Source: Impatiens glandulifera (lineage: Eukaryota; Streptophyta; Magnoliopsida; Ericales; Balsaminaceae). From it: a stretch of DNA of 64,000 bases. The DNA is taken from the NCBI RefSeq assembly GCF_907164915.1, contig NC_061863.1, positions 7,060,340-7,124,339 on the forward strand, in the 5' to 3' direction. The notes under the pieces are model-generated. The model did not search any database. It had not been told where the DNA came from and saw nothing but the letters and a program-made list of their open reading frames with translations. The position numbers and the translations under genes are program-made. Positions 1 to 52,944 of the stretch are shown here, piece by piece (position 1 is the stretch's first letter; each line of letters starts with the position of its first letter).

Positions 1-1283
1 AACGACAACGCTTCTATTTCAAAACAAATAATTCCTGAAACATTAAATAAAGCTTGGATTTTGAATTAAGAAATTTAATATTGTTCAATATTTGGTTAAT
101 CTAAACTATATTAGCAACCTCTAATAAGCTTATGAAACATGAATAAAATGTATTGTTTACAATTATATTATTAAAATTATATTATTAAAATCAGAGTGGC
201 GCAACGGAAGTTTTGTGGGTCCATAACCTACATGTCCAAATCAAAACCTGGCTCTAATATTTTTTTTCTTTTTACAATTTTATTTAGTTCATCTTCAATT
301 ATATTTAGGTATGAATATTTTTAATCAAGGTAACTAAGATACAATCATACAAATGTTATGAAACATATTTATTGTTTATAGTATGTTCCTACAAAGTATT
401 TTTCATACAAATGTTATGAAATATATTTCTTGTTTATAGTACGTTCCTACAAAATATTTGTTAGTAGACAAATGGGTATTGAAAACGAAGTTGAGAAGGT
501 GTAGATTTGTGAGTTTTATAGAAAGTTTGAATTTTGAAAATAGAAATTCAATATTCTTAAAAAGTTATTAAATATGTTTCATCTAATCAATTCTAGACAC
601 CTCTGATGAGTTATGAGAAAGATCTTGAAAAAAGATTTACTTACTAAATGTATTCTTTTTCAAAGGTTATGTGATATATCTTGCATTCTTTGCCCATAAG
701 AAATTATTAATAAAAATGACTAAAATATTTATAATTTTATATTTTAAAGATAAATAAAAGTATTTTGATATTTTACTTTATGTTTTTGAAAGATATGATT
801 AAATAAATGATTGACAAACATAACGGTAATTTGAATTAAATTTATGTCACCTGAAATCTGTTTATTTAAAAAAAATAGTTTTAAAGTATTGAATGAGTTA
901 TTTGGGTAAAAAGCTAATTGGATAGTTATTTGATTTTTCAATAAACAAATCTCAATCACATTATATATATATATATATATATATATTCTCAATCATCAAA
1001 TTACTTAATTATATAATCATGAGACGCATAAATAATTTCTCGGGGGCTAAATTAGTTATATTTATAATACAATTTTTTTTCCGATTAAATAAATATATTT
1101 ATTAATTAAAACATTACAAGGATAATATAAATCGTGAAAAATACATTAATAAACACAATTACAAAGTTATTCTTGTCGATGAGTCGGTACAAAAGAAGAC
1201 AATTCTATGAGACTCCATTTGTTGAAAATATTACAATATTTGTTCATTTTCAATTGTTGAAAAAAATATTTTTTTCAATATTC
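1..1283. repeat. AT-rich spacer repeat, copy of 31446-32330
   Basis: No gene is visible. The first ~950 bases match 31446-32330 closely, beginning with the same AACGACAACGCTTCTATTT. At 31.4 kb that sequence directly follows the end of the coiled-coil gene, so another coiled-coil copy probably lies just left of the window (inference). A tRNA-like sequence sits at 190-259 and a short (TA)n run at 962-986. After about 1005 the match is lost, and 1006-1283 is AT-rich sequence I cannot assign. Confidence 0.7.
190..259 (+). pseudogene. Degenerate initiator tRNA-Met-like sequence
   Basis: The sequence begins ATCAGAGTGGCGCAACGGAA and ends CCTGGCTCTAATA, which is the plant initiator tRNA-Met layout with a CAT anticodon in CCATAAC. 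The acceptor stem pairs except for one mismatch. About two bases are missing in the T arm, so the T stem cannot form properly. It lies inside a repeat also found near 27.2 and 31.6 kb, so it is a repeat component rather than a working tRNA gene. Confidence 0.75.
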
Positions 1284-2243
1284 TATGATATCATCTTCGG
1301 TTCAACCGATCCTAAGTTATGTGATAAATTTTCAACCCTGATGACTAACAAGTTTGAAATGAGTATGATGGGAGAATTAAGTTTCTTCCTAGGTCTTCAG
1401 GTTAAACAACTCGAAGAAGGAACATTCATAAGCCAACCTAAGTACACCAAGGAGCTTCTAAAGAAATTTGGGATGGATACATGCTCCTCAGCGGCTACTC
1501 CAATGAGCTCATCGGTTAAATTGGACAAAGATGATGAGGGTCAATCGGTACACCAAATCGCTTACCGGGGCATCATCGGTTCTCTCCTATACCTGACAGC
1601 AAGTAGACCGGATATTCTATTTGCAGTCGGTGTGTGTGGAAGATTCCAAAAAAATCCAAAACAATCCCACTACACAGCCGCAAAGCGAATATTGAAATAC
1701 CTAAAGGGAACACCTGATGTCGGCTTGTGGTATCCAAAGGATTCATCCTTTAACCTAACGAGCTATTCAGATGCAGACTATGCAGGTTGCAAGATTGATA
1801 GAAAAAGCACCAGCGGAACACGTCAGTTCCTAGGTGACCGGCTTGTTTCATGGCATAGCAAGAAACAAACATCAGTTGCCACATCAACCGCAGAAGCTGA
1901 ATACCTGGCAGCCGAAAGTTGTTGCTCACAACTTCTTTAGATCCAACAACAACTGAAGGACTTCGGTGTCACAGCCGAAGAGTCTCCGATCTTCTGTGAC
2001 AACACAAGTGCCATAGCAATCACCTACAATCCGGTTCTACACTCCAGAACCAAGCACATTGACATAAGGCACCACTTCATTCGGGAACATGTCATGCTGA
2101 AGCATATCCGGTTGGAATACGTATCAACAGATCAACAAGTAGCCGATATCTTCACCAAGCCTCTACAGGAAGCTAAGTTCTCTCAATTCAGACTTACACT
2201 CGGTTTAACCGATATTAGTCAGATCATCCCTAAGGATGCTTAA
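1284..2243 (+). pseudogene. Copia RT end plus RNase H, with in-frame TAG
   Basis: This is the C-terminal part of a Ty1-copia polyprotein. Visible motifs are DIIFGST (after the RT active site), GELSFFLGLQV, SRPDILFAVGV, YSDADYAG (RNase H), KKQTSVATSTAEAEYLA and, after the stop, ADIFTKPL. The frame stays open to TAA at 2241-2243 except for TAG at 1938-1940, where family members usually have Trp. RNase H is thus split, and only one Asp of the YVDD pair remains at the broken left end. The product would be inactive. The upstream open frame back to 1134 shows no similarity to copia and is not part of the gene. Confidence 0.88.
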
Positions 2244-2686
2244 AGGAGAGACCGGTTCGGACAGACAAAACCGGTAGTTCCTCCTAAACTGTTGGACTTC
2301 AAATTTTCAAGGTATCTATGGAAGAACCGCCTGGTTTATCAGTCAGAGTAAACCGACCGGTTATTTAGTGCATGCACCAAATAACCGCTTCGGGACGAAC
2401 GACTGATAATTGACCGGTTCGGAAATAGCTTATCTTAGATTATTTGAACTTCAAACAAAAGTGGAATAATTATCAGTGTTTAAATTTATCTGTTCTGAAA
2501 CATTTCATTTTCAAAGTAAAATGGTCGTACCTAAAAAGACGTGAAGATCTGATATCTTTCATGGTCCAGGTCTATGACCAACATCCTAGGCTGCAGACAT
2601 GCCTATTTCATGCAAAACTTTTTATCCTGTGGTTAATAGACATTATTATCTGTGATATCTGGACAATAGGTTTATCCCTCCACTAG
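2244..2686 (+). other. Spacer between RNase H and first accessory gene
   Basis: No coding similarity is seen. The sequence is rich in ACCGGTT/AACCGG motifs, like the 3' LTR and the other accessory promoters, and leads into the TATA box at 2687. It probably serves as the upstream promoter of the first accessory copy. Confidence 0.45.
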
Positions 2687-2694
2687 TATATAAG
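2687..2694 (+). promoter_or_regulatory. TATA box of accessory copy 1
   Basis: TATATAAG lies 69 bases before the ATG at 2756. It is followed by an A/C-rich and CT-rich leader (CTCTTCCTCTCACTAAG) typical of a plant 5' UTR. Confidence 0.55.
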
Positions 2695-2755
2695 TTGAAC
2701 AAACCTTAAACAAAACAATCACAAGCTGCATAACTCTTCCTCTCACTAAGACAAA

Positions 2756-3511
2756 ATGTCTCAGTTTCCTAACATCCTTAAAGTGGATTTCAACTCTGCT
2801 CAAAGCACTGAGCACTATGAGATCTTCAAGATGATCAAATCACTTGAAGATACTGGTCTTCAACATTTTCTGGATGACAAACATGTCATCTATTCTGAGT
2901 CTGTCCTGGAGTTCTTTTATAATGCCAGGGTGTTTCGTGGTACTCCACACTTTGACACTCACATCCAGTCAAAGGTAGGAGGTATCGTTTTTGACTTCAC
3001 CGAAAATGACTTTGCCAGATGCTTTAACCTGCCAAAGCAGGGGCTAACCGACCTCAACATACCGGCTGAACTAAAAGCCGAGATCTCCTTAGCATTTGCC
3101 CGGTCAAGCCATCCAGTGGATGACCACGGTGCTAAGTCACTATTGAAAGCTGAATACTAGCTCCTCAATGATGTAGTCGGTCGGGGCATCCTGGGAAGGG
3201 ATGTGACCAACACATACTGCACCGCTGCCTTCAACATGATGGCGGTCATAACTACTGGAACACCGGTCAATTGGTCGAGGGTACTGTTTGACGTCCTAGT
3301 CTGGATGATAGGTGTTAAAACAGTCGGTCTCATTCCTCAAATCAGCTGTCTGCTTCTGGAACTTGGGGTTCCAACATGCCCAGGGGAAGGGCTGAATCAA
3401 GCTCAAGTGCTAACCAAGGAAATAACTGACTCGTTCTATGAGCGGTTTGAAAAGGCATGGAAGAGGAGGAACCGCCACCCCAACGGTCACACCACCTCAA
3501 GCGGATATTAG
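2756..3511 (+). pseudogene. Retroelement accessory protein, copy 1 (in-frame TAG)
   Basis: About 251 codons encode a protein of a plant family that I recall being labelled putative plant transposon protein. Its biochemical role is unknown. Shared family motifs are an N-terminal DTGLQHFL, a V.EFF..A stretch, FDFTENDFARCFNLP, GTPVNWSRVLF and a Gly/Pro-rich end. A TAG at 3158-3160 interrupts the frame after KAEY. Copy 2 has Gln in the equivalent HIQLLLEIV, so a CAG-to-TAG change is the simplest explanation. The same frame stays open on both sides, so the break is recent. It ends at TAG 3509-3511 without the coiled-coil tail seen in copy 3. Confidence 0.7.
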
Positions 3512-3874
3512 GTCACTCCTTCCTACACCCGGTCATTTTGCTGCACGCACCGGGTGTATCTTTGTTCAACCTCCTTATGATCATTTCGGTTTTATCTATG
3601 TTTTCTTCAGTTTAAGTTATCTATCGGTTTCTAGCGGTTACTTTTCAGTGTATTGTTGCATGGGTCATTAATGAAAAGTAACATTTAATTAATGAGATAA
3701 CCCCCAACTACATGAGTAATCAATACCCAACTAACTTGGTTACTTTTCAACTAAAACCTACATCGAGCTCCGCAATCAACCTCTTCCCAATGAGCTTTGG
3801 AAACAGAAAGATTCTCTTCTCCAATAAGACAAAACTGACATTCAATGTTGATGTCTTCCCTCCAAAACCGGATC
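3512..3874 (+). other. Spacer and promoter region of accessory copy 2
   Basis: No coding gene is supported. The spacer has CGGTT motifs and leads to the TATA box at 3875. Confidence 0.4.
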
Positions 3875-3883
3875 TATATAAGG
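3875..3883 (+). promoter_or_regulatory. TATA box of accessory copy 2
   Basis: TATATAAGG lies 81 bases before the ATG at 3956. The leader contains CTCCTTCTCTCTCTAATAG, closely resembling the leader of copy 3. Confidence 0.6.
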
Positions 3884-3955
3884 AGACCTTTCCTAATCAA
3901 ATTAACACATCTCAAATCTTAAACTCCTTCTCTCTCTAATAGCAAAGTTCGAATA

Positions 3956-4657
3956 ATGCCGAGCCGAACTCTAGGAAACTTCTTGAGCATCGATTTCGAA
4001 TCTTGTATGGAACATTGGGACGGAGAAACAAAGGAGGTCATGTTTGAATCTCTCATTGACACCGGCCTTCGAACCTTTCTCGAAGAATCCGGTCTCATAC
4101 TTCTTGAGGATGTTAAGACCTTTTTCAGAAGTGCTTGCATCAGAGATAACTACATCGTCTCCACGGTAAGAGACCATACCTTCTGGCTGGATGAAGCCGA
4201 ATTTGCCCATATGTTCAACTTTCCCACAGAAGGGTTTTCCGACTTCCCAACCCAGGTGGAGAGTGCAGTAACCGATCATGCAATGTTCTTCTTTAGAACC
4301 GATGTTCCGGTGGAAAACCATGGGTTAAAAACCCGCCTTGCTCATCACATTCAACTCCTTCTTGAGATTGTAACCCGCTCCATCATTTGTCAATCCCCGA
4401 ATCAGCGTTACTCCAAGAAAACATACGATATGATGACCCATATTGTTAGCAACACGGCCATCAATTGGTCAACGGTCATTTTTCAGAACCTGAAAACCAT
4501 GGTGCTGACCAAGAAAGGTATCGGTTATGCTCCTCACATCAGTAAGATCATTCTCAAGTACCGCCCAGAATTTGGACCGGGCACACCGGCATCTCCCTCG
4601 AACACTCTTGACATGGATGGGGTGGAAGAAAAGCTTTCTAGGGTAGTTATTACATAA
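3956..4657 (+). CDS. Retroelement accessory protein, copy 2 (intact, 233 aa)
   Basis: This is the only uninterrupted copy of the accessory family in the window. Motifs line up with the other two: DTGLRTFLEE (about residue 38), VKTFFRSA, FWLDEAEFAHMFNFP, a central Gln/Leu-rich helix HHIQLLLEIV, TAINWSTVIFQNL and a C-terminal GIGYAPHISKI. No membrane segment, signal peptide or known catalytic motif is visible. It is shorter than copy 3, lacking the Lys-rich, acidic and coiled-coil tail. It has its own TATA box and CT-rich leader and sits between copies 1 and 3 on the same strand. The function is unknown. Its placement after RNase H fits an element-encoded accessory or captured gene. Confidence 0.75.
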   Translation: MPSRTLGNFLSIDFESCMEHWDGETKEVMFESLIDTGLRTFLEESGLILLEDVKTFFRSACIRDNYIVSTVRDHTFWLDEAEFAHMFNFPTEGFSDFPTQVESAVTDHAMFFFRTDVPVENHGLKTRLAHHIQLLLEIVTRSIICQSPNQRYSKKTYDMMTHIVSNTAINWSTVIFQNLKTMVLTKKGIGYAPHISKIILKYRPEFGPGTPASPSNTLDMDGVEEKLSRVVIT

Positions 4658-4980
4658 GTTGTATCTTTCCATCTTCTGTATTTCTATTTCCAAACCGATC
4701 CATATATCGGTTTCCATTTTGTACCTCTTCATTCAATGAAATTCTATTTCAGTAAATAACCGAGTCAACATAATCATCAGAATATTCATCTAAGTAACCG
4801 GTTAATATTGTCAAAACCGGTTAAAATTCTGCTTCTTCAAATAACCGGTTAAATTTCGATAACCAAACTCTCTGGTTAAAATAAAAACACCGCAGTATCA
4901 AACGATTTCAAAGGGGATTGCGTCATCAAAGTCAAAATCGAAAATTTTGGAGGGAAATCTCCCGCTCAAACTTCCCACCT
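4658..4980 (+). other. Spacer between accessory copies 2 and 3
   Basis: Non-coding. It contains at least four AACCGGTTAA-like or ACCGGTT motifs between 4798 and 4870. It precedes the GC-richer promoter of copy 3. Confidence 0.4.
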
Positions 4981-5001
4981 CTTGGTTTACCTCCCATTGA
5001 A

Positions 5002-5156
5002 TTGGCGCCTCTTTAATCACCGCCCTTTGATTCCCACCGTTTGGATTACCGCCTTTTTGGCTTCCCGCCCACAGATTGCCGCCTCTTTGGCTTGGAGGGA
5101 AAATTCCCGCCAAAAGTTGATGGGACGGTTGGGTTTCCAAACCGCACCTATAAAAG
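5002..5156 (+). promoter_or_regulatory. Promoter of accessory copy 3 with E2F-like sites and TATA
   Basis: TATAAAAG at 5149-5156 lies 123 bases before the ATG at 5272 and is followed by a long CT-rich leader. Upstream are TTGGCGCC (5002-5009) and TTCCCGCC (5063-5070 and 5104-5111), each close to the plant E2F consensus TTTSSCGC. They lie within degenerate repeats of the form ACCGCCTTTTTGGCTTC. Functional E2F binding is inference. Confidence 0.5.
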
Positions 5157-5271
5157 GAGTCCTTGGCCATTTCATTTCACTCTTACGCGAAACAGCTTTC
5201 TCTCTCTAAGCTCTCAAACTCTCTCTCAGCGGTTACTCTCTGTTTTTCTCAAAATCTCTCAATCATCTAAG

Positions 5272-7871
5272 ATGGGTCGTGCCTCGGCTTTGTTCAGACA
5301 CATCATTCAGGTGGATTTCGAGGAGATCCGACAAAAGGGCTCGCCTGCGGCAAAGGAAGTTATTGCCCGGATTTCTGAAGCCGGACTTGAATATTTTCTA
5401 GGCGGTCCCTTTGTTCTCTATAGAGAAGCGGTTGAAGAATTTTTCGAAACCGCATCTCTATCTGGTGACAAGATAACCGCAACTGTTGGCGGTACTTAGT
5501 TCGATATAACCGAAGAATCGGTTGCGGAGATTCTACGTCTTCCATCAGATGGCCAAAACGCTTTGATGAAGCTCGCACCAACAACATTCGAGGCGGCCTG
5601 CCAGATTCTCTCTGCAGACGCGGAACCGGTGAAAGTATCCGGTAAGAAATCGACACTACGACCGGAATACATACCGCTTTGTGACATCTTCACAAAGTCG
5701 GTTCAAGCGAGAGGTGGAAATTACGACAACCTTACCAAGGCCAAGATCGAGATGCTGATCGGTTTGCTGGAAGGTACGAAAGTCAACTGGGCGAAGGAAA
5801 TTTTCCACAACCTGAAAGACATTTTGAAACCGGATTCCGCCCGGTCATGGGGATACGCCATCCCCCTTGGAAAAATCATGCTCCACCATAACATCAACAC
5901 CGGTCCTGGTGTTATTCTCTCATCAAGTAGGATAATAAAATCCAAACAATTCCTGGAGAGAAAGCAGCCGGCCCCCGGTTCCACAGGTGGCCGAAAGAAG
6001 AAATCTACCGCCAAGAAACCGGCCCCGGCAAAAGAAAAGTCCGAAAGCAAGGACAAGGAGAAGATAGTATTCTCAGAACCGCCCACAAGAGATGAGGAAG
6101 AATCGGCTTCCACGTCTGACCGAACCGGCTCACAAAAAACCGATGAAAATCCTTCCGATAGAGAAGGACCGAATGAAGAAGAACACTCGGGTATAAGTCC
6201 TGACAACAACGATGCGGCCGCAAGCATTGAGAACACCGATGCCGGTGCAGACGGCCGTGAAGAAGAGGATACCGCTGAAGACGACTAGAAGATGGCCGAA
6301 ATCATCGTACGAAGTATCTTGGAGGAAATCGAATAGCGAGTCCAAGCGGTTGTCGTAGTATACCGGGAATGGCACGGGTACCGATGCGACAAATTTTTCA
6401 AACACATGTTACCGGGCCTGACCGATGAACAATGCTTCAGAAGGCTGAAGGAGATAGAAGAAACCGTTATAAGCCTCACAAACGCTGAGGATCCTAACAA
6501 AGCCATGGACCGACACGCAATCGTGAAACCGCGTGCTCGGCTACAGAAGCTCACCGTACGTATCCGAAAGCTTTCAGAAAGGTATGTTCCAGGAACACCG
6601 AAGGCTAATTTACAGCTCTTGGTGTTGAACAAGCTTGAGATAAAGAAAGGAGAATTCACTGAGGAAATAGAGCGGATTGAAGCGGTGCACAGACAGCGAG
6701 AAACATCACATTCTCCGCGTCTTGAGACCAATGACAGTCAGAATCGAAGTAAAACGCCTCCTCTAGCGGATCCGGTCATAAACGAAACCGACGAAAGGAC
6801 GGGGACTCCTCTCGCCGGGCAATTTGAAACTGATCAACCTGGGGTTTCCGAACCGGACGTCACAGAAGAAAGGGTCAAGTCCCTTATTCAAGAGTTTGCA
6901 GACTCAACGGTTCAACCATTGGAGACGAAAATCAAGAAAGCCATGCGCCAAACACTCATGTTCGCCGAAAAGACGAGGGATGATCTCGTAAAGGCAGAGG
7001 ACCAGATCACAGTCATCGAAAACGAATACCGGGACGACGTGGTTCTGCACAACGAACATTATCAACAAACCAAGGACTTGGAAGAAAAGACCTCAAGGAT
7101 GGTGGATGACATGGATCGGTTTGAAAGGGAAACCGAGCAACGATTCAAAGAGGTCGATGAGGACCTGGGGCGGTCAAGAAATGAAGTCGGCTCGACACTT
7201 GACAGGGTCACAGATCTGGAAAAGAAGAATGCACGCCTTGAAGACCGCAACGACAAGCTTGAAGCCGATCTTAAGGCGCTAACCGAACAGGTCAATGAGT
7301 TGATAAATGCCAAGATCAATGCTGACATAGCGGTGGAGGAAGCAAACGCTCGAGCGGCTAAGGAAGTCCAAGATGCGTTGGACGAAGAAACGCGGAGAGC
7401 AAAGGAGGCACCGCGACTATCTGAAGAGGAAATAGCCGAGCGCGAACGAAACACAGCGGCTAATATCCGGGACTTGCGAAGTCCATAAAAGTTCAAGCGG
7501 CCAAAGATGCAGAGCGGTTAAACGCACAAAAACAAGGGCTCGAAGAATATGTTAGGGCTCACAAGAAGAAAAAGGCAGCATCCTCCTCTTCGGCTCCGGT
7601 GAAACGAAAAAGGAAGGTTTCAGCAAGAAAAATGTTGGAGAGGATCACCGAGACAAATATGGATACTCCACCAAACCCACAGCAAACCGAGGATGAAAAC
7701 GAAGAGCATCTTGAGCAACGGTCTACAAGACAGCGAGTCTCCGATACGGTTCCAATCAGCACGGTCGGTCAACCGCGAGCTGAAGGTTCATCTTCAAGAC
7801 CGGATCAACCGAATGAAGAAGAACCAACCGATGATATGATGGACGGCATCAGATTTTCCGAATCAGAATAG
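5272..7871 (+). pseudogene. Accessory protein copy 3 with coiled-coil tail, broken
   Basis: This is the longest accessory copy, about 866 codons if read through its breaks. Residues 1-230 carry the family domain (VDFEEIRQ, GLEYFLGG, FDITEESVAEIL, KVNWAKEIFHNL). A Lys/Ala/Pro-rich stretch (about 5970-6060) and an acidic Ser/Glu region (to 6285) follow. Then comes a long coiled coil (about 6880-7470; DLEKKNARLEDRNDKLEADL) and a basic cluster KRKRKV near 7602 that resembles a nuclear localisation signal. Breaks are TAG at 5497, 6286 and 6334, and a frameshift near 7470, after which frame 3 stays open to TAG at 7869. Coiled coils are also reported in Sirevirus envelope-like ORFs, but no membrane segment is seen here. 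Confidence 0.7.
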
Positions 7872-8192
7872 GGGATTTACTTTCTTACTTTATGTTTCTT
7901 TCGGTTTATTTCGGTTACTTTTATATATATATATAAAGTTATTTTTGAAACCGGCCTATACTTGCATTTCTACATGGTTTTGATAATTTTAAGTAAAATA
8001 ATTAAAAAGGGAGAAATTGATAAGATAAAAGATTAGATTTTTCCAAAATTTTTCTCAAAATTACTCCAAATTTTTTCGAAAAATTCTCCCAAGTCAGTTT
8101 CAAAAAAATCCGGTCAAATAAAGAACTGGCCTACGTTTGCAAACTTACATGGTTTTGATAATTTTAAATAAAATAATCAAAAAGGGAGAAAT
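7872..8192 (+). repeat. Duplicated polypurine-tract region
   Basis: A segment starting GGCCTA, running through ACATGGTTTTGATAATTTTAA to AAAAAGGGAGAAA, occurs twice (7956-8024 and 8128-8196). There are therefore two polypurine tracts (8006-8018 and 8179-8191). The second directly abuts the LTR start TGTTAG. The first is followed by TGATAAG, which looks like a degraded LTR start. The rest is AT-rich filler with (TA)n at 7923. Confidence 0.75.
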
Positions 8193-9460
8193 TGTTAGAT
8201 AAAATTAGACCGGTTCACAGAACTTAACACATAAACCTTCTATGTAGGAACAAGGAACCGGACCGGTCAAACAAATGAACCGGTTAAGAAGATTAACCGG
8301 TCAAGTTATTAAACCGGCCAGGAACATTCGAAACATGACCGCACAAAGAAAGGATCGGCCAGAGCTAAGAACCGGAAACACCAGACAGCCGATCAGCTAC
8401 AAGGCAAAGGAATAACCAGAAGCTGTCCGGTTAAAACCAATCACATCGGAAACCATCCGGTGAAAAGTCAAATGACCAGCATAAGAAGATACTTCGGGTA
8501 TCTGTTGAGAATGATACCAAAGGAACAGACTGAAAATTTCCATATTCATACAAGTCTGAGGACAGTCTGCAGGTTGTAGAACACCGTCCTACAGGATCTT
8601 TCCACTTCAGGATAAATCAGAAAGGCAATCTTCTAAGTACAGACAACTGTCTAACAGACAGTCACCATATTGAGCAAAAGACAAACCTAGCAGGTTTGTC
8701 TTACACACTGGAAGAACAGACTGCCAAGTCTGTGAAATTGACCGCCAGGTCTATATCAATGAACCTCTACTCAGCCAATCAAGTTCAAGGAAGTGAAATA
8801 TGACCGTTGGCATATTTCACCTATAAAAGGAGCAGCTGAAGAAGAGTAAAAACGGGACAAAAATGGGACACAGGGAACATAGTGAACAAGCAATCTACAA
8901 GTGAAAAGAGTGTGTTCTCTCTCTAGAAAAAGCCTAAGTGCTAAAGTTGAAGTGTGTATTTTACAATTTCGGTGTAAATTGTAAGGGTATTATCGAGCAG
9001 GAAATAAGTCTCGATCGATTGTATTTGTATTCCTTAGTGAATATCCTTCTCGCGGTTTCGAGAGGAAGGGGTGACGTAGGAGTTTTATCTCCGAACATCC
9101 ATAAAAACCTGTCTTGTTATTTACTTTCTGCTGGTTCTACATTCTAACCGACCTGTACTAACCTATCTACACCGATCTAACCGACTCTACATCACCTAAA
9201 CCGAATCACCAAGTTACAAAAACCGATCCATTAATTTCCAAACCTATCCTATTGAAAACCGGTTCTGCCTATCTTGTGAGTGTGCTGCTTCAACCTGAAA
9301 CAAACCTCTTCCGCGCTTGAACCTAGTTCAAAGGTTTGTGACAGTTTGTGTAGTATTGAAATCCCGGTGTTAATCTCTAACCGGATTAATCACCACCCTT
9401 TGAGTGAGACGCGCTAACCGGCCCAACCCCGGTTCTCCAGCCGCGACCTAGATCCTAACA
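8193..9460 (+). repeat. 3' LTR of the copia element
   Basis: The LTR starts TGTTAG directly after a polypurine tract and ends CTAACA, giving a perfect 6-bp terminal inverted repeat over 1,268 bp. CTATAAAAGG at 8821-8830 is the likely promoter, with CT-rich sequence near 8918 downstream. U3 is dense in AACCGG/CCGGTT motifs (8210-8330). The open frame at 8938 inside R/U5 is not a gene. Confidence 0.85.
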
Positions 9461-11352
9461 ACATTTTTTTACGTTTTTGGCACGTTTAACACGTTTTTAA
9501 CTTATATAACATGTTAACACGTTTTTGATAAGTTTAACACGATCTTCACGTTTTTGGCATGTTTAACACATTTTTGACATTTTAACACGTTTTGATATGT
9601 TTAACACGTTTTTCACACGTTTAACACGTTTTTAATATTTTAAACACGTTTTCACACTTAAAACATGTTTTTCACACGTTTAACATGTTTTTACGTTTTT
9701 GGCACGTTTAACAAGTTTTTAGCATGTTTAACATGTTTTCATACTAATAACACGTTTTTGTCACGTTTAACACGTTTTTGACATGTTTAACGCGTTTTTG
9801 ACGAGTTTAATACGTTATTTTTTACGTTTTTGGCACGTTTAACACGTTTTTAACATAACTAACACGTTAACACATTTTTGAAAAGTTTAACATTGTTTTC
9901 ACGTTTTTGACATGTTTAACATATTTTTACATTTTAACATGTTTTTGATATGTTTAACACGTTTTCACACGTTTAACACGTGTTTCACACGTTTAACATG
10001 TTTTTCACGTTTTTGACATGTTTAACATGTTTTTGACATATTTGACACGTTTTTCACATTTTGGTTCGTTTAATACGTTTTTGACATGTTTTCACGTTTT
10101 TCACATTCTTAACACGTTTAACATGTTTGTAACATGTTTAATACGTTTGTAACATGTTTAACACGTTTTTCACATTTTTGGCACGTTTAACACGTTTTTG
10201 ACATTTTAACACGTTTTACACACTTTACATATTTTTGACATGTTTAACATGTTGTTTTGCACGTTAACATGTTTTGATAAGTTTTAACACGTTTTTGTCA
10301 CATTTGACACGTTTTTGGCATTTTTGACATGTTTAATATGTTTTTCACACGTTTGACATCAAACAGGTGAAAACGTATTAAACGTGTCAAAATGTGAAAA
10401 ACATGTTAAACGTGTCAAAAACATGTTAAACGTATCAAAATATGCCAAAAACGTGGAAAACGTGTTAAACATGTCAAAACGTGGAAAACATGTCAAAACG
10501 TGTTAAACGTGCCAAAAACGTGAAAAACGTGTGAAAACATGTTAAACATGTTACAAACGTGTTAAACGTGTTAATAATGTGAAAAATGTGAAAAATGTGA
10601 AAAACATGTTAAACATGTCAAAACGTGTTAAACGTGCCAAAAACGTGAAAAATATGTCAAAATGTGTTAAATGTGTCGTAATCGTGAAAAATGTGTCAAA
10701 CGTGTTAAACATGTCAAAACATGAAAATAGTGTCCAACGTGTCGAATGTGTTAAACGTGTTGAATGTGTGAAAAACGTATTAAACGTGTCGAAAACGTAT
10801 TAAACGTGTCGAAAATGTGAAAAATGTGTTAAACGTCTCAAAATGTGGAAAATGTGTCAAAACGTGTTAAACGTGCCAAGAATGTGAAAAACGTGTGAAA
10901 TACGTCAATAATGTGAAAAACGTATTAAACGTGTCGAAAACATGAAAACGTGTTAAACGTGTCAAAACGTGTCAAAAACATGGAAAACGTGTCAAAACGT
11001 GCCAAAAACGTGAAAAACGTGTGAAGCGTGTCAAAAATGTGAAAAACATGTTAAACGTGTCAAAACGTGTTAAACGTGTCAAAATGTGTTAAACGTGTTA
11101 AAACGTGCCAAAATATGTCAAAATGTGTTAAACGTGTCGATAATGTGAAAAAACGTGTCAAAACGTGTTAAACGTGTTAAACATGCCAAAAATATGAAAA
11201 ACGTGTTCAACGTGTCAAAAATGTATTAAACGTGCCAAAAACATGTTAAACGTGTCAAAAACGTGTTAAACGTGTTAAGAACATATTAAAAATGTCAAAA
11301 ACGTGATAAACGTGTTAAACAAATAAAAATGTGTTAAATGAGTCAAATACAT
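9461..11352. mobile_element. Foldback-like inverted array, copy 1
   Basis: The left arm (to about 10362) is an imperfect tandem array of TTTAACACG and TTTTTGACACG units. The right arm is the reverse complement (CGTGTTAAA, CGTGTCAAAAA), so the whole can fold into a hairpin with arms of about 0.9 kb. Inverted arms made of tandem short repeats are the hallmark of foldback transposons. The left end is replaced by the LTR. Copies 2 and 3 lie at 22.6 and 44.9 kb. Confidence 0.7.
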
Positions 11353-22599: not shown

Positions 22600-24185
22600 G
22601 GTGCGTTTAAATTTTTAAGCGTGCGATTTGGAATTAAAATTAGAATCCCAATGAAATTCAAAATAGTGTAATTTTATAGTTCGCAATTTCAATCTTTTTA
22701 AGTCAGAATTGTAATTCAATTTTTTTTTAACTTATTCAACACGTTTTTAACTCATTTAACAAATATTTTATTCATTTAACATGTTTTGACTCGCTTAATA
22801 CGTTTTTAGTTTTAATAATATGTAACTTGTTTTAATTTATTTCACACGTTTTTGACACATTTGATACGTTTTAACATGTTTAACACGTTTAGGCACGTTT
22901 AACATGTTTTTGATATGTTTCACACGTTTAACATGTTTTTCACACGTTTAACACGTTTTTCACAAGTTTTTGACACATTTAACATGTTTTTACACGTTTT
23001 TTTGTACATTTTTGACACGTTTAATATGTTTTTAACCTTTTGACACGTTTTTCACGTTTTTGGCACATTTTCAGTTTTTGTCACGTTTAACACGTTTTGA
23101 CACGTTTAACACGTTTTTGACACGTTTAACACGTTTAACACGTTTAACACGTTTTTGACATGTTTAACACGTTTTTCACACGTTAAACACGTTTTTCACA
23201 CGTTTAACATGTTTTTACATTTTTGGCACATTTAACATATTTTTACATGTTTAACATGTTTTTGACACGTTTAACACGTTTTCCATGTTTTAGACACATT
23301 TTTCATGTTTTTGACACGTTTAACATATTTTTGACATGCTTAACACGTTTTTCACGTTTTGGTATGTTTTTCATATTTTGACACGTTTAACACGTTTTTG
23401 ACATGTTCCAAATGTTTTTCACGTTTTGACACATTTTTGACATGTCAAAACATGTTAAATGTGGCAAAAATGTGTTAAACGTGCCAAAAACGTGTTAAAA
23501 TGTGTTAATACTTGTTAAATGTGTTAAACGTGCCAAAAACGTAATAAATGTGCCAAAATGTGTTGGAATGTCAAAAACCTGTTAAACATGCCAAAAACGT
23601 GAAAATTGTGTTAAACGTGCCGAAAATGTGAAAATTTTGTTAAATGTGCCAAAACGTGTTGAATGTGTTAAAATGTCAAAAACGTGTTAAACGTATTAAA
23701 CGTGCCAAAAACGTGTTAAACGTGTAAATGTGTTTAATGTGCTAAAAATATGTTAAATGTGTCAAAAATGTGTTAAACTTGTCAAAACGTGTTAAACATG
23801 TCAAAAACGTGTTAAACGTGTCAAAATGTGTAAAACGTGTGAAAACGTGTTAAACATGCCAAAAATGTGTTAGACGTGCCAAAAACATGTTAAACGTGTG
23901 AAAACGTGTTAAACATGTTAAACGTGTCAAAAACGTGAAAAACGTGTTAAACTTGTCAAAATGTACGAAAAATATGTTAAATGTATTATAAATTTCAAAA
24001 ACGTGTTAAATGTGTCAAAAACATAAAAAACGTGTTAAACTTGTCAAAACATGTGAAAAAAATGTTAAATGTATTAAAAATGTCAAAAGCGTGTTAAACG
24101 TGCCAACAACATGAAAAACTTGTTGAACGTGTGAAAATATGTTTGAAGTATGAAAACATGTTAAACATGAAAAAAAAAATGTGTT
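22600..24185. mobile_element. Foldback-like inverted array, copy 2 (3' truncated)
   Basis: The element starts GGTGCGTTTAA, matching the outer terminus of copy 3 (GGTGTGTTTGG). The left arm of AACACGTTTTT/GACACG repeats (from about 22735) switches orientation at a TGACATGTCA palindrome near 23438 into the complementary right arm. It ends abruptly near 24185, where the sequence jumps to the equivalent of 47264 in block B, so about 0.9 kb including the right terminus was deleted. Confidence 0.7.
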
Positions 24186-44915: not shown

Positions 44916-46809
44916 GGTGTGTTTGGTAACATTGGAATTGAAATTGAAATTGAAATTAGAATTCCAATGGAATTCAAAATAGTGTAATTTTATAGTTCGT
45001 AATTCTAATCTTTTTAGGTCAGAATTGTAATTCCAATTTTTTTTATTTATTCAACACGTTTTTAACTCATTTAATAAATATTTTATTCATTTAACATGTT
45101 TTGACTCGCTTAATACGTTTTTAGTTTTAATAAGTTTGTAACTCGTTTTAATTCATTTCACACGTTTTTGACACGTTTAATACGTTTTAACACGCTTAAC
45201 ACATTTAAGAACATTTAACACGTTTTTGATATGTTTAACACGTTTAACACGTTTTTCACACGTTTAACACCTTTTTGGCACGTTTAACATGTTTTCACGT
45301 TTAACACGTTGTTCACGTTTTTTGTACGTTTTTTATATGTTTAAAATGTTTTAACGTTTTTGACACGTTTTTCACGTTTTTGGTACGTTTTCACATTTTT
45401 GTCACGTTTAACACGTTTTGACACGTTTAACATGTTTTTCACGTTTTTGATATGTTTAACACGTTTTTCACACATTAAACACGTTTTTTACACGTTTAAC
45501 ATGTTTTCATGTTTTTAGCACGTTTAACATGTTTTTTACATATTTAACATATTTTTGACACATTTAACACGCTTTTCAAGTTTTAGACACGTTTTTCATA
45601 TTTTTGGTACGTTTTGACACGTTTAACACGTTTTTGATATGTTCCACATGTTTTTCACGTTTTGACACATTTTTGACATGTCAAAACATGTTAAATGTGC
45701 CAAAACATGTTAAATGTGCCAAAACATGTTAAATGTGTCAAAAACATGTTGAATGTGCCAAAATTGTGTTAAACGTGCCAAAAACGTGTTAAAATTTGTT
45801 AAATGTGTTAAAGGTGCCAAAAACGTAATAAATGTGTTAAAATGTCAAAAACGTGTTAAACGTGCCAAAAATGCAAAAAATGTGTTAAACGTGTCAAAAA
45901 CGTGAAAAATATGTTAAATGTGCCCAAATATGTTTCATGTGTTAAAAATATGTTAAACGTGTCAAAATGTGTTAAACTTGTCCAAACATGTTAAACATGT
46001 CAAAAACGTGTTAAACGTGCCATAAATGTGTAAAATGTGTGAAGACGTGCTAAACATGCCAAAAACGTGTTAGACGTGCTAAAAATGTGTTAAACATGTA
46101 AAAAACATGTTAAACGTGCCAAAAACGTGAAAAACATGTTAAACTTGTCAAAATGTGTGAAAATATGTTAAACGTATTAAAAATGTCAAAACATGTTAAA
46201 TGTGTCAAAAACGTGAAAAACGTGTTAAACTTGTCAAAATATGTGAAAAACATGTTAAACGTATTAGAAATGTTAAAAGCGTGTTAAACGTGGCAAAAAC
46301 GTGAAAAACTTGTTAAACGTGTGAAAATGTGTTTTAAGTATAAAAATGTGTTAAACATGTAAAAAAACGTGTTTAAACGTACAAAAAAACGTGAAACTGT
46401 GTTAAACGTTTAAAAACATGTGGAACATGTCAAAAACGTGTTAAACATGTCAAAACGTGAAAACGTGCCAAAACGTGAAAAATATATTAAGCATGTCAAA
46501 AACATGTTAAATGTGTCAAAAACATGAAAACGTGTTAAACATGTAAAAAAATGTGTTAAACATGTAAAAAAACATGTTAAACATGCCAGAAACATGAAAA
46601 CATATTAAACGTGTGAAAAACGTGTTAAACGTGTTAAAAACATGTTAAACGTGACATAAACGTGATAAATGTAATTATTTACAAACATAGGAATTGAGAT
46701 TGAATTACAATTCTATAATTTTCTCAAACATAGGGATTGAATTGTAATTCAATGTCAATTCTCATGGAATTGGAATTAAGATTCCAATTCCACTAATACA
46801 AACATACCC
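44916..46809. mobile_element. Foldback-like element, copy 3 (both ends present)
   Basis: The outer ends are GGTGTGTTTGG and CAAACATACCC. Subterminal GGAATTGAAATTGAAATTG and ATTCCAATTCC sequences also pair. Inside, a left array (from about 45046) of AACACGTTTTT/GACACGTT units turns at TGACATGTCA near 45680 into the reverse-complement array (to about 46680). Nothing in it encodes a transposase, so it is non-autonomous. I could not see a convincing target duplication. Confidence 0.75.
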
Positions 46810-52673: not shown

Positions 52674-52944
52674 GGTGTAGGTGTAGGTGTAGGTGTAGGT
52701 GTAGGTGTAGGTGTAGGTGTAGGTGTAGGTGTAGGTGTAGGTGTAGGTGTAGGTGTAGGTGTAGGTGTAGGTGTAGGTGTAGGTGTAGGTGTAGGTGTAG
52801 GTGTAGGTGTAGGTGTAGGTGTAGGTGTAGGTGTAGGTGTAGGTGTAGGTGTAGGTGTAGGTGTAGGTGTAGGTGTAGGTGTAGGTGTAGGTGTAGGTGT
52901 AGGTGTAGGTGTAGGTGTAGGTGTAGGTGTAGGTATAGGTATAG
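52674..52944. repeat. (GGTGTA)n hexanucleotide array, ~43 copies
   Basis: Essentially pure GGTGTA repeats, ending in two GGTATA variants. All six frames stay open through it, producing spurious Cys-Arg, His-Leu and Pro-Thr repeat frames. Confidence 0.98.

Follow-up and report, generated by a model that had tools for sequence, protein, structure and literature searches.

Can the open reading frames (ORFs) that lie between the pol gene and the 3' long terminal repeat (LTR) of a plant retrotransposon be genes of the element in their own right, each with a promoter of its own? The question is raised by a stretch of 64,000 nucleotides (nt) of Impatiens glandulifera (C2:7060340-7124339; the whole stretch is called the window here), in which one decayed copia element spans positions 1285-9460. 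Three genes, referred to here as accessory genes 1, 2 and 3, lie downstream of its RNase H (RH), and a preliminary description of the window had taken them, at 2756, 3956 and 5272 on the pol strand, for diverged copies of one family with independent promoters. After searching the 654-Mb genome of the source plant, we read the locus as a decayed copy from a large copia family that has three internally promoted accessory genes, and we give this reading a probability of roughly 0.68. The 5' part of the window copy is gone: its homology to 19 relatives starts at 1285, inside the reverse transcriptase (RT). From there the order is RT end and RH, genes 1, 2 and 3, a tail with a duplicated polypurine-tract region, and the 3' LTR; spacers of 512, 444 and 614 nt precede genes 1, 2 and 3, respectively. 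Among the three accessory genes of this copy, gene 2 alone is open; gene 1 is broken by one TAG and gene 3 by three TAGs and a frame break.

In a genome search with gene 2, the best 150 of 18804 first-look candidates were scored; those listed were 85-100% identical, and 20 insertions from the top of this list (insertions are designated by L numbers) formed our close sample. RT/RH together with gene 1 was found in 19/20 of these (exception L010), as was the gene 3 domain with its coiled-coil part (exception L025), while the end of gene 3 and a sense 3' LTR downstream were each found in 17/20. One start pattern of gene 2 had 184 exact matches in the genome. This gene-2-chosen sample was complemented by an RT search (best 150 of 19858 scored), and all six insertions fetched with it (L034-L039) contained genes 1, 2 and 3 in the same order. 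L038 had been picked because of a PF20167 match inside it, and the other five had not been picked by accessory matches; in L037-L039 the sequence reaches only into the beginning of gene 3, and L036 is a decayed copy. Because relatives throughout the genome repeat this gene order from RNase H to LTR, the genes belong to the retroelement, as the preliminary description had supposed, and have been multiplied along with it.

The copia identity of the family is evident from the pol frame of L029, in which rve (220-317) precedes RVT_2 (606-759); the upstream stretches of other copies contain gag, integrase and RT arranged as in copia, and the gag frame of L030 matches the copia gag family PF14223 (E 4e-22). 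In the one insertion whose ends were tested (L032/L014), the LTR pair is 2.1% apart, GAAAT at both ends represents a 5-bp duplication, and the primer-binding site (PBS) is ATTGGTATCAGAGC. At assumed substitution rates of 1.3e-8 to 7e-9, this insertion is about 0.8-1.5 million years old. Among the 150 RT matches listed, 41 share a score of 456.9 bits, many of them with open frames of 1076 or 1093 amino acids, and this group is an expanded and probably young subfamily. Two of its members, L034 and L035, are 95% identical to the window in RT, 70-77% in gene 1, 64-65% in gene 2 and 46-60% in the gene 3 domain; their mutual DNA identity is 83%, and all three accessory ORFs are open in both (237/244, 235/235 and 953/946 amino acids). 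Gene 3 is also open in L015. Many copies of the family have open frames, and at least one insertion is about a million years old.

That the three genes are homologous is beyond doubt, and the claim of one diverged family on the pol strand is confirmed. Searches of the open pieces with tblastn gave E 2e-14 for gene 1 against gene 2, 8e-27 for gene 2 against gene 1 and 2e-17 for gene 2 against gene 3, and profile comparisons gave E 1e-19 for genes 1 and 2 and 7e-15 for gene 2 against the open gene 3 of L015, all far above chance level. Gene 3 consists of the N-terminal domain common to genes 1 and 2 and a long C-terminal tail. In a tree of 17 domain copies, which carries a long-branch warning, the rows of genes 1, 2 and 3 each formed one clade (supports 93/95, 98/98 and 100/100). 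Since each gene position has its own clade, the triplication is older than the split of the subfamilies, at which RT dS is about 1; the genes are thus amplified, as first described, by way of an old triplication. A more distant copia copy (L033, RT 73-81%) has one accessory-like ORF (1747-2462) that was seen between RH and an LTR piece; its placement in the tree is uncertain and it has no Pfam match, and L033 possibly represents a one-gene state preceding the triplication.

The only significant family match of the accessory proteins was PF20167 (Transposase_32), covering most of the profile. At E 0.1, it was found for gene 1 in 8/8 open relatives (best 3e-6), for gene 2 in 8/11 open copies (best 0.0023), for gene 3 of L015 (8e-6) and for 7/7 accessory ORFs of L034, L035 and L038 (E 3e-9 to 7e-4). 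The pieces in the window matched weakly (0.0044 for a gene 1 piece, 0.1 for another) or not at all, and neither the L033 ORF nor the part frame of gene 3 in L016 matched. With 13-37 bits (37.4 for the best fetched protein), the matches do not reach the Pfam gathering score of 45. These similarities indicate that all three genes are remote relatives of PF20167. When the genome was searched with this profile, at least 43 of the best 150 scored among 3707 candidates lay above the cut-off; C9:15758691, below it at 38.3 bits, is gene 1 of L038. An excerpt of a 2024 paper places PF20167 in the 3' ORF of sunflower Athila 14 (PMC11728184). Athila thus has the same domain family in its 3' ORF, but it belongs to another superfamily, Ty3/gypsy, with one such ORF reported, whereas the copia element has three whose matches are significant yet below the Pfam cut-off. 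The proposed origin by capture of a host gene found no evidence: PF20167 is transposon-associated, and host relatives were not searched otherwise.

Other searches were negative. No plant-mobile-domain match was found at a maximum E of 10 (HMMER filters drop most matches above 0.1), NCBIfam gave no match for three accessory proteins, and a PDB search returned nothing useful (best E 0.26). For genes 1 (L014 copy) and 2, a search of 5.8 billion proteins gave no match at E 0.001; only 259 and 115 candidates, respectively, had common words. In the same set, pol obtained 7008 matches, and those with a named organism among the 120 listed were from plants.

Selective constraint was estimated with the NG86 method in 190-210 pairs of close copies, stop codons being skipped. 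The dN/dS values were 0.12 for RT, 0.16 for RH, 0.09 for gene 1, 0.13 for gene 2, 0.37 for the gene 3 domain and 0.40 for the gene 3 tail, clearly indicating purifying selection on all three genes, on two of them about as strong as on RT among close copies. Between the window group and L034/L035, dN/dS was 0.02-0.05 for RT (dS about 1), 0.13-0.22 for gene 2 and 0.21-0.25 for gene 3, the last being uncertain as dS was 2.2-2.5; for gene 1 it was 0.05-0.08 in 3/10 pairs, the other 7 having saturated dS. Because the RT value across this deep split is only 0.02-0.05, the accessory proteins are faster-evolving than RT yet constrained.

The candidate promoters were compared in close rows, which include the window and leave out rows without the region, and in deep rows, which are ten representatives spanning the deep split. 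The TATA boxes 69, 81 and 123 nt upstream of the three ATGs and the CT-rich leaders of the preliminary description are present in the window. TATA-like boxes stand at nearly constant positions in 20/20, 21/21 and 20/20 close copies for genes 1, 2 and 3 (61/61), and in 10/10, 9/10 and 10/10 deep rows (29/30); five deep rows are shared with the close set, and the five new ones account for 14/15. In the spacer between genes 2 and 3, five runs of at least 6 nt are invariant in 10/10 deep rows, namely CCTATAAAA, TTTCTCT in the leader, GGACGGTT and TTGGAGGGAAA just upstream, and TTGGAGGG at -325; the runs of the gene 3 promoter block are lost in L036, which is absent from the deep alignment. Ranked for conservation within their own spacers, the TATA windows of genes 1, 2 and 3 came 111/506, 32/438 and 16/608, and Fisher's combination gave p 0.016, or 0.020 with local ranks. 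We regard the boxes as good evidence of a promoter at gene 3, as fair evidence at gene 2 and as weak evidence at gene 1, and transcription from them as probable.

Behind the gag-pol region, the family has three old paralogous accessory genes in sense orientation; according to our reading, each of these would be a self-contained RNA polymerase II unit made up of TATA box, short CT-rich leader and ORF. The LTR promoter would supply the gag-pol and genomic RNA, while three internal promoters would supply separate short accessory mRNAs. The accessory proteins might then act in the nucleus as regulators, for example by activating or de-silencing the element, rather than as parts of the particle. 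We put this function forward tentatively, below even odds, from two basic clusters in the gene 3 tail that resemble nuclear localization signals (NLS). Of the additional gene 3 features described earlier, KRKRK is present in 17/18 insertions with that part aligned, the window included (it is missing in L012), and L034 and L035 have basic clusters near the same end of gene 3; the coiled coil amounts to weak Pfam matches. Envelope- or movement-like proteins would suit the location after pol and a hydrophobic stretch in gene 1, where KD19 was 1.42-1.84 in the 4/4 copies looked at. However, the KD19 values of genes 2 and 3 do not exceed 1.2, suggesting a helix buried within one common fold, and gene 3 has its conserved NLS-like cluster; we consider such proteins unlikely.

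Several observations weigh against our reading. L037 reads CATATAA at the gene 2 box, and the decayed L036, outside the deep alignment, has kept the boxes of genes 1 and 2 and is without that of gene 3. The significance of the TATA conservation is modest, and the gene 1 window has a rank of just 111/506. Depletion of ATGs in the leaders, tried as a sign of promoters, was dropped as not significant (an ATG in 9/20, 1/21 and 5/20 leaders against 5.8, 5.2 and 6.1 expected in total); all nine leader ATGs of gene 1 are no more than about 20 nt away from the TATA box and would presumably escape transcription. Many copies are dead, stop-free aligned rows numbering 12/20 for RT, 16/20 for RH, 14/20 for gene 1, 18/21 for gene 2, 10/20 for the gene 3 domain and 7/20 for its tail. 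The nuclear role is deduced from the basic clusters alone, and the AlphaFold model built from five window rows was poor (pLDDT 52). Finally, TAAG precedes the ATG of gene 1 in 9/10 deep rows, so splicing is a possibility at this gene.

Alternative splicing of the LTR transcript, which reportedly occurs in barley Bagy2, would make the CT-rich leaders polypyrimidine tracts and the AG before each ATG an acceptor. Such an AG within 20 nt of the ATG was indeed found in 19/20, 21/21 and 18/20 close copies (genes 1, 2 and 3), the TAAG of gene 1 fits equally well, and in the gene 3 leader AGs farther upstream persist in copies without an ATG-proximal one, leaving room for an upstream acceptor. However, the last 15 nt before the ATG are without AG at gene 2 in L034, L035, L037 and L038 and at gene 3 in L024, L035, L038 and L039 (4/10 each), L035 nonetheless having all three ORFs open, and splicing fails to predict TATA-like boxes at a nearly fixed distance. 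These boxes persist across deep subfamilies, whereas some copies have lost the AG of genes 2 and 3, so separate promoters are favored and splicing appears improbable. To this extent the independent promoters proposed in the preliminary description are supported, and from them we infer independent transcription.

Slightly less probable still is translation of the ORFs from the full-length RNA by re-initiation, an internal ribosome entry site or stop suppression, with TATA boxes that are incidental in AT-rich spacers. All of the ORFs are in the sense direction, and an excerpt of PMC2829016 describes stop suppression in SIRE1. However, spacers of 512, 444 and 614 nt intervene, and the open frames start only within them (2750, 3923 and 5017), so a single suppressed stop cannot fuse an ORF to the preceding gene; the conserved boxes and leaders would also be unpredicted. 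The possibility that host genes form a local cluster beside an unrelated LTR, which the preliminary description had named as the outcome that would overturn it, was rejected and has a negligible probability, since relatives across the genome do contain the genes in the same order from RNase H to LTR and no point in support of a cluster was found.

Two further observations concern the region of promoter 3. The stretch upstream of it (4940-5130) is CCGCC-rich and partly repeated, contains E2F-like sites and is highly variable in length among copies. As a promoter feature, E2F-like sites are no more than a lead: 4 lie in this spacer, but gene 3 has 7, gene 1 has 1 and the remaining 52.6 kb have 15, and they are not in all copies.

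The close copies also revealed exchange of modules. Three gene 1 classes were set by gene 1 distance; the four-fold-site distances between and within classes were 0.45/0.15 for gene 1 (by construction), 0.12/0.10 for RT and 0.21/0.14 for gene 2. The divergent segment starts roughly 100 nt before TATA 1 and stops close to where gene 1 ends, and TATTTAA occurs in 4/4 class B rows and in no class A or C row. With promoter 2 type 1 assigned by eye from the sequence, class A combines with type 1 in the window and L016 and with type 2 in eight others, and class B with type 1 in L012, L015 and L025 and with type 2 in L013. Since classes A and B each occur with both promoter 2 types, the modules recombine, and promoter 1 and gene 1 jointly behave as a cassette that can be exchanged. 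The likely mechanism is template switching during reverse transcription. A broader scheme, about evenly poised between right and wrong, is that of a copia plan resembling a complex retrovirus, in which gag-pol would be LTR-driven and three regulators internally promoted, and in which these regulators, which would stem from a PF20167-type gene that gypsy elements also have and that was triplicated long ago, would be swapped as promoter-gene cassettes between co-resident elements.

The evidence on the suggested link to Sirevirus is mixed. Like Sirevirus/SIRE, the family has copia order, sense ORFs between pol and the 3' LTR and ATTGG at the PBS junction. At the junction of 5' LTR and PBS, which is CA/ATTGG in Sirevirus, ATTGG was present in 3/3 copies (L030, L031 and L032), the LTR end itself being mutated in L030, and two copies of the polypurine tract (PPT) lie near the 3' LTR in each of the window, L034 and L035, compared with an average of four in the excerpt of PMC2829016. 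However, the PPT here is AAAGGGAG and that of Sirevirus/SIRE AGGGGGAG, an octamer that was counted 0 times in window 1156-11056, L034 and L035, whereas AAAAAGGGAGAAAT precedes the LTR in the window, 16/17 relatives (L014 with one change), L034 and L035. Because the diagnostic octamer is absent, membership of the element in Sirevirus is doubtful. Moreover, Sirevirus/SIRE has one ORF (eORF-3'F, 'env-like'), whereas here there are three paralogues, each with a conserved TATA-like box. For the Sirevirus ORF, an internal promoter was hypothesized with the support of motifs and without conclusive identification (PMC2829016, in part). According to a portion of PMC6317226, a sense extra ORF occurs in 74% of SIRE elements; these ORFs fall into 19 groups that show little or no similarity, and their function is questioned.

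Another internal accessory gene at the 3' side is gene23 of the maize gypsy element Grande, which has its own promoter and a nuclear protein (PMC7264820, in part). It is antisense and single, whereas the genes here are sense and three in number. To our knowledge, gene23 has no relation to the accessory proteins described here. Foamy viruses have an internal promoter for tas/bet, a second promoter serving regulatory genes; these are animal retroviruses, and the likeness to the present element would lie in the working principle of an internal promoter. Among titles and abstracts of open-licence literature, we found no account of a copia element with three paralogous genes under separate promoters. 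Plant LTR elements commonly have additional ORFs behind pol, whose function a large survey has questioned on account of their divergence (PMC6317226), whereas the three found here are under purifying selection. The candidate promoters and the hundreds of natural variants make the questions of function and internal promoters directly testable, and the shared PF20167-type domain connects the accessory genes of copia and gypsy elements.

The features of the insertion are listed in Table 1.

Table 1. Coordinates of the copia insertion and its accessory genes, in positions of the window.
Feature	Position	Strand	Remarks
Truncated copia pol (RT end and RNase H)	1285..2243	+	RVT_2 E 2.8e-10; single TAG at 1938
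Putative TATA box of gene 1, TATATAA, -69 from ATG	2687..2693	+	TATATAA/TATTTAA in 20/20 close and 10/10 deep rows
Accessory gene 1	2756..3511	+	One in-frame TAG at 3158; 237-253 codons in open copies looked at
Putative TATA box of gene 2, TATATAA, -81 from ATG	3875..3881	+	21/21 close and 9/10 deep rows
Accessory gene 2	3956..4657	+	Open, 233 amino acids
Candidate gene 3 promoter block with TTGGAGGGAAA, GGACGGTT and CCTATAAAA	5092..5155	+	Runs invariant in 10/10 deep rows
Putative TATA box of gene 3, -123 from ATG	5149-5155	+	20/20 close and 10/10 deep rows
Gene 3 leader, CT-rich	5192..5260	+	TTTCTCT invariant in 10/10 deep rows
Accessory gene 3	5272..7871	+	TAGs at 5497, 6286 and 6334; frame break near 7488; 860-953 amino acids where open
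Coiled-coil-like stretch in gene 3 tail	7111..7446	+	Weak Pfam coiled-coil/helical matches
Two basic clusters, KKKK and KRKRK, NLS-like	7563..7616	+	KRKRK in 17/18 aligned insertions
Polypurine-tract region, 74 nt, duplicated (7949-8022, 8124-8197)	7949..8197	+	Terminal PPT 8179-8192
3' LTR, TG...CA	8193..9460	+	Matches LTRs of relatives

Beyond the insertion, the window contains three large fold-back arrays (9461-11319, 22840-24140 and 45095-46669) of units of about 20 nt (CACGTTTTTGACATGTTTAA-like) that are reverse-complemented in the second half; they are about 68-73% self-complementary across 1.1-2 kb, and the first starts directly at the LTR end. A segmental duplication in pieces relates 13.2-24.2 kb to 35.5-46.4 kb, with about 79-96% identity at a distance of about 20-22 kb; each half contains a fold-back array, and parts reappear at 29.7-31.4 kb. 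At 52674-52944, GGTGTA is repeated 45 times in nearly perfect copies.

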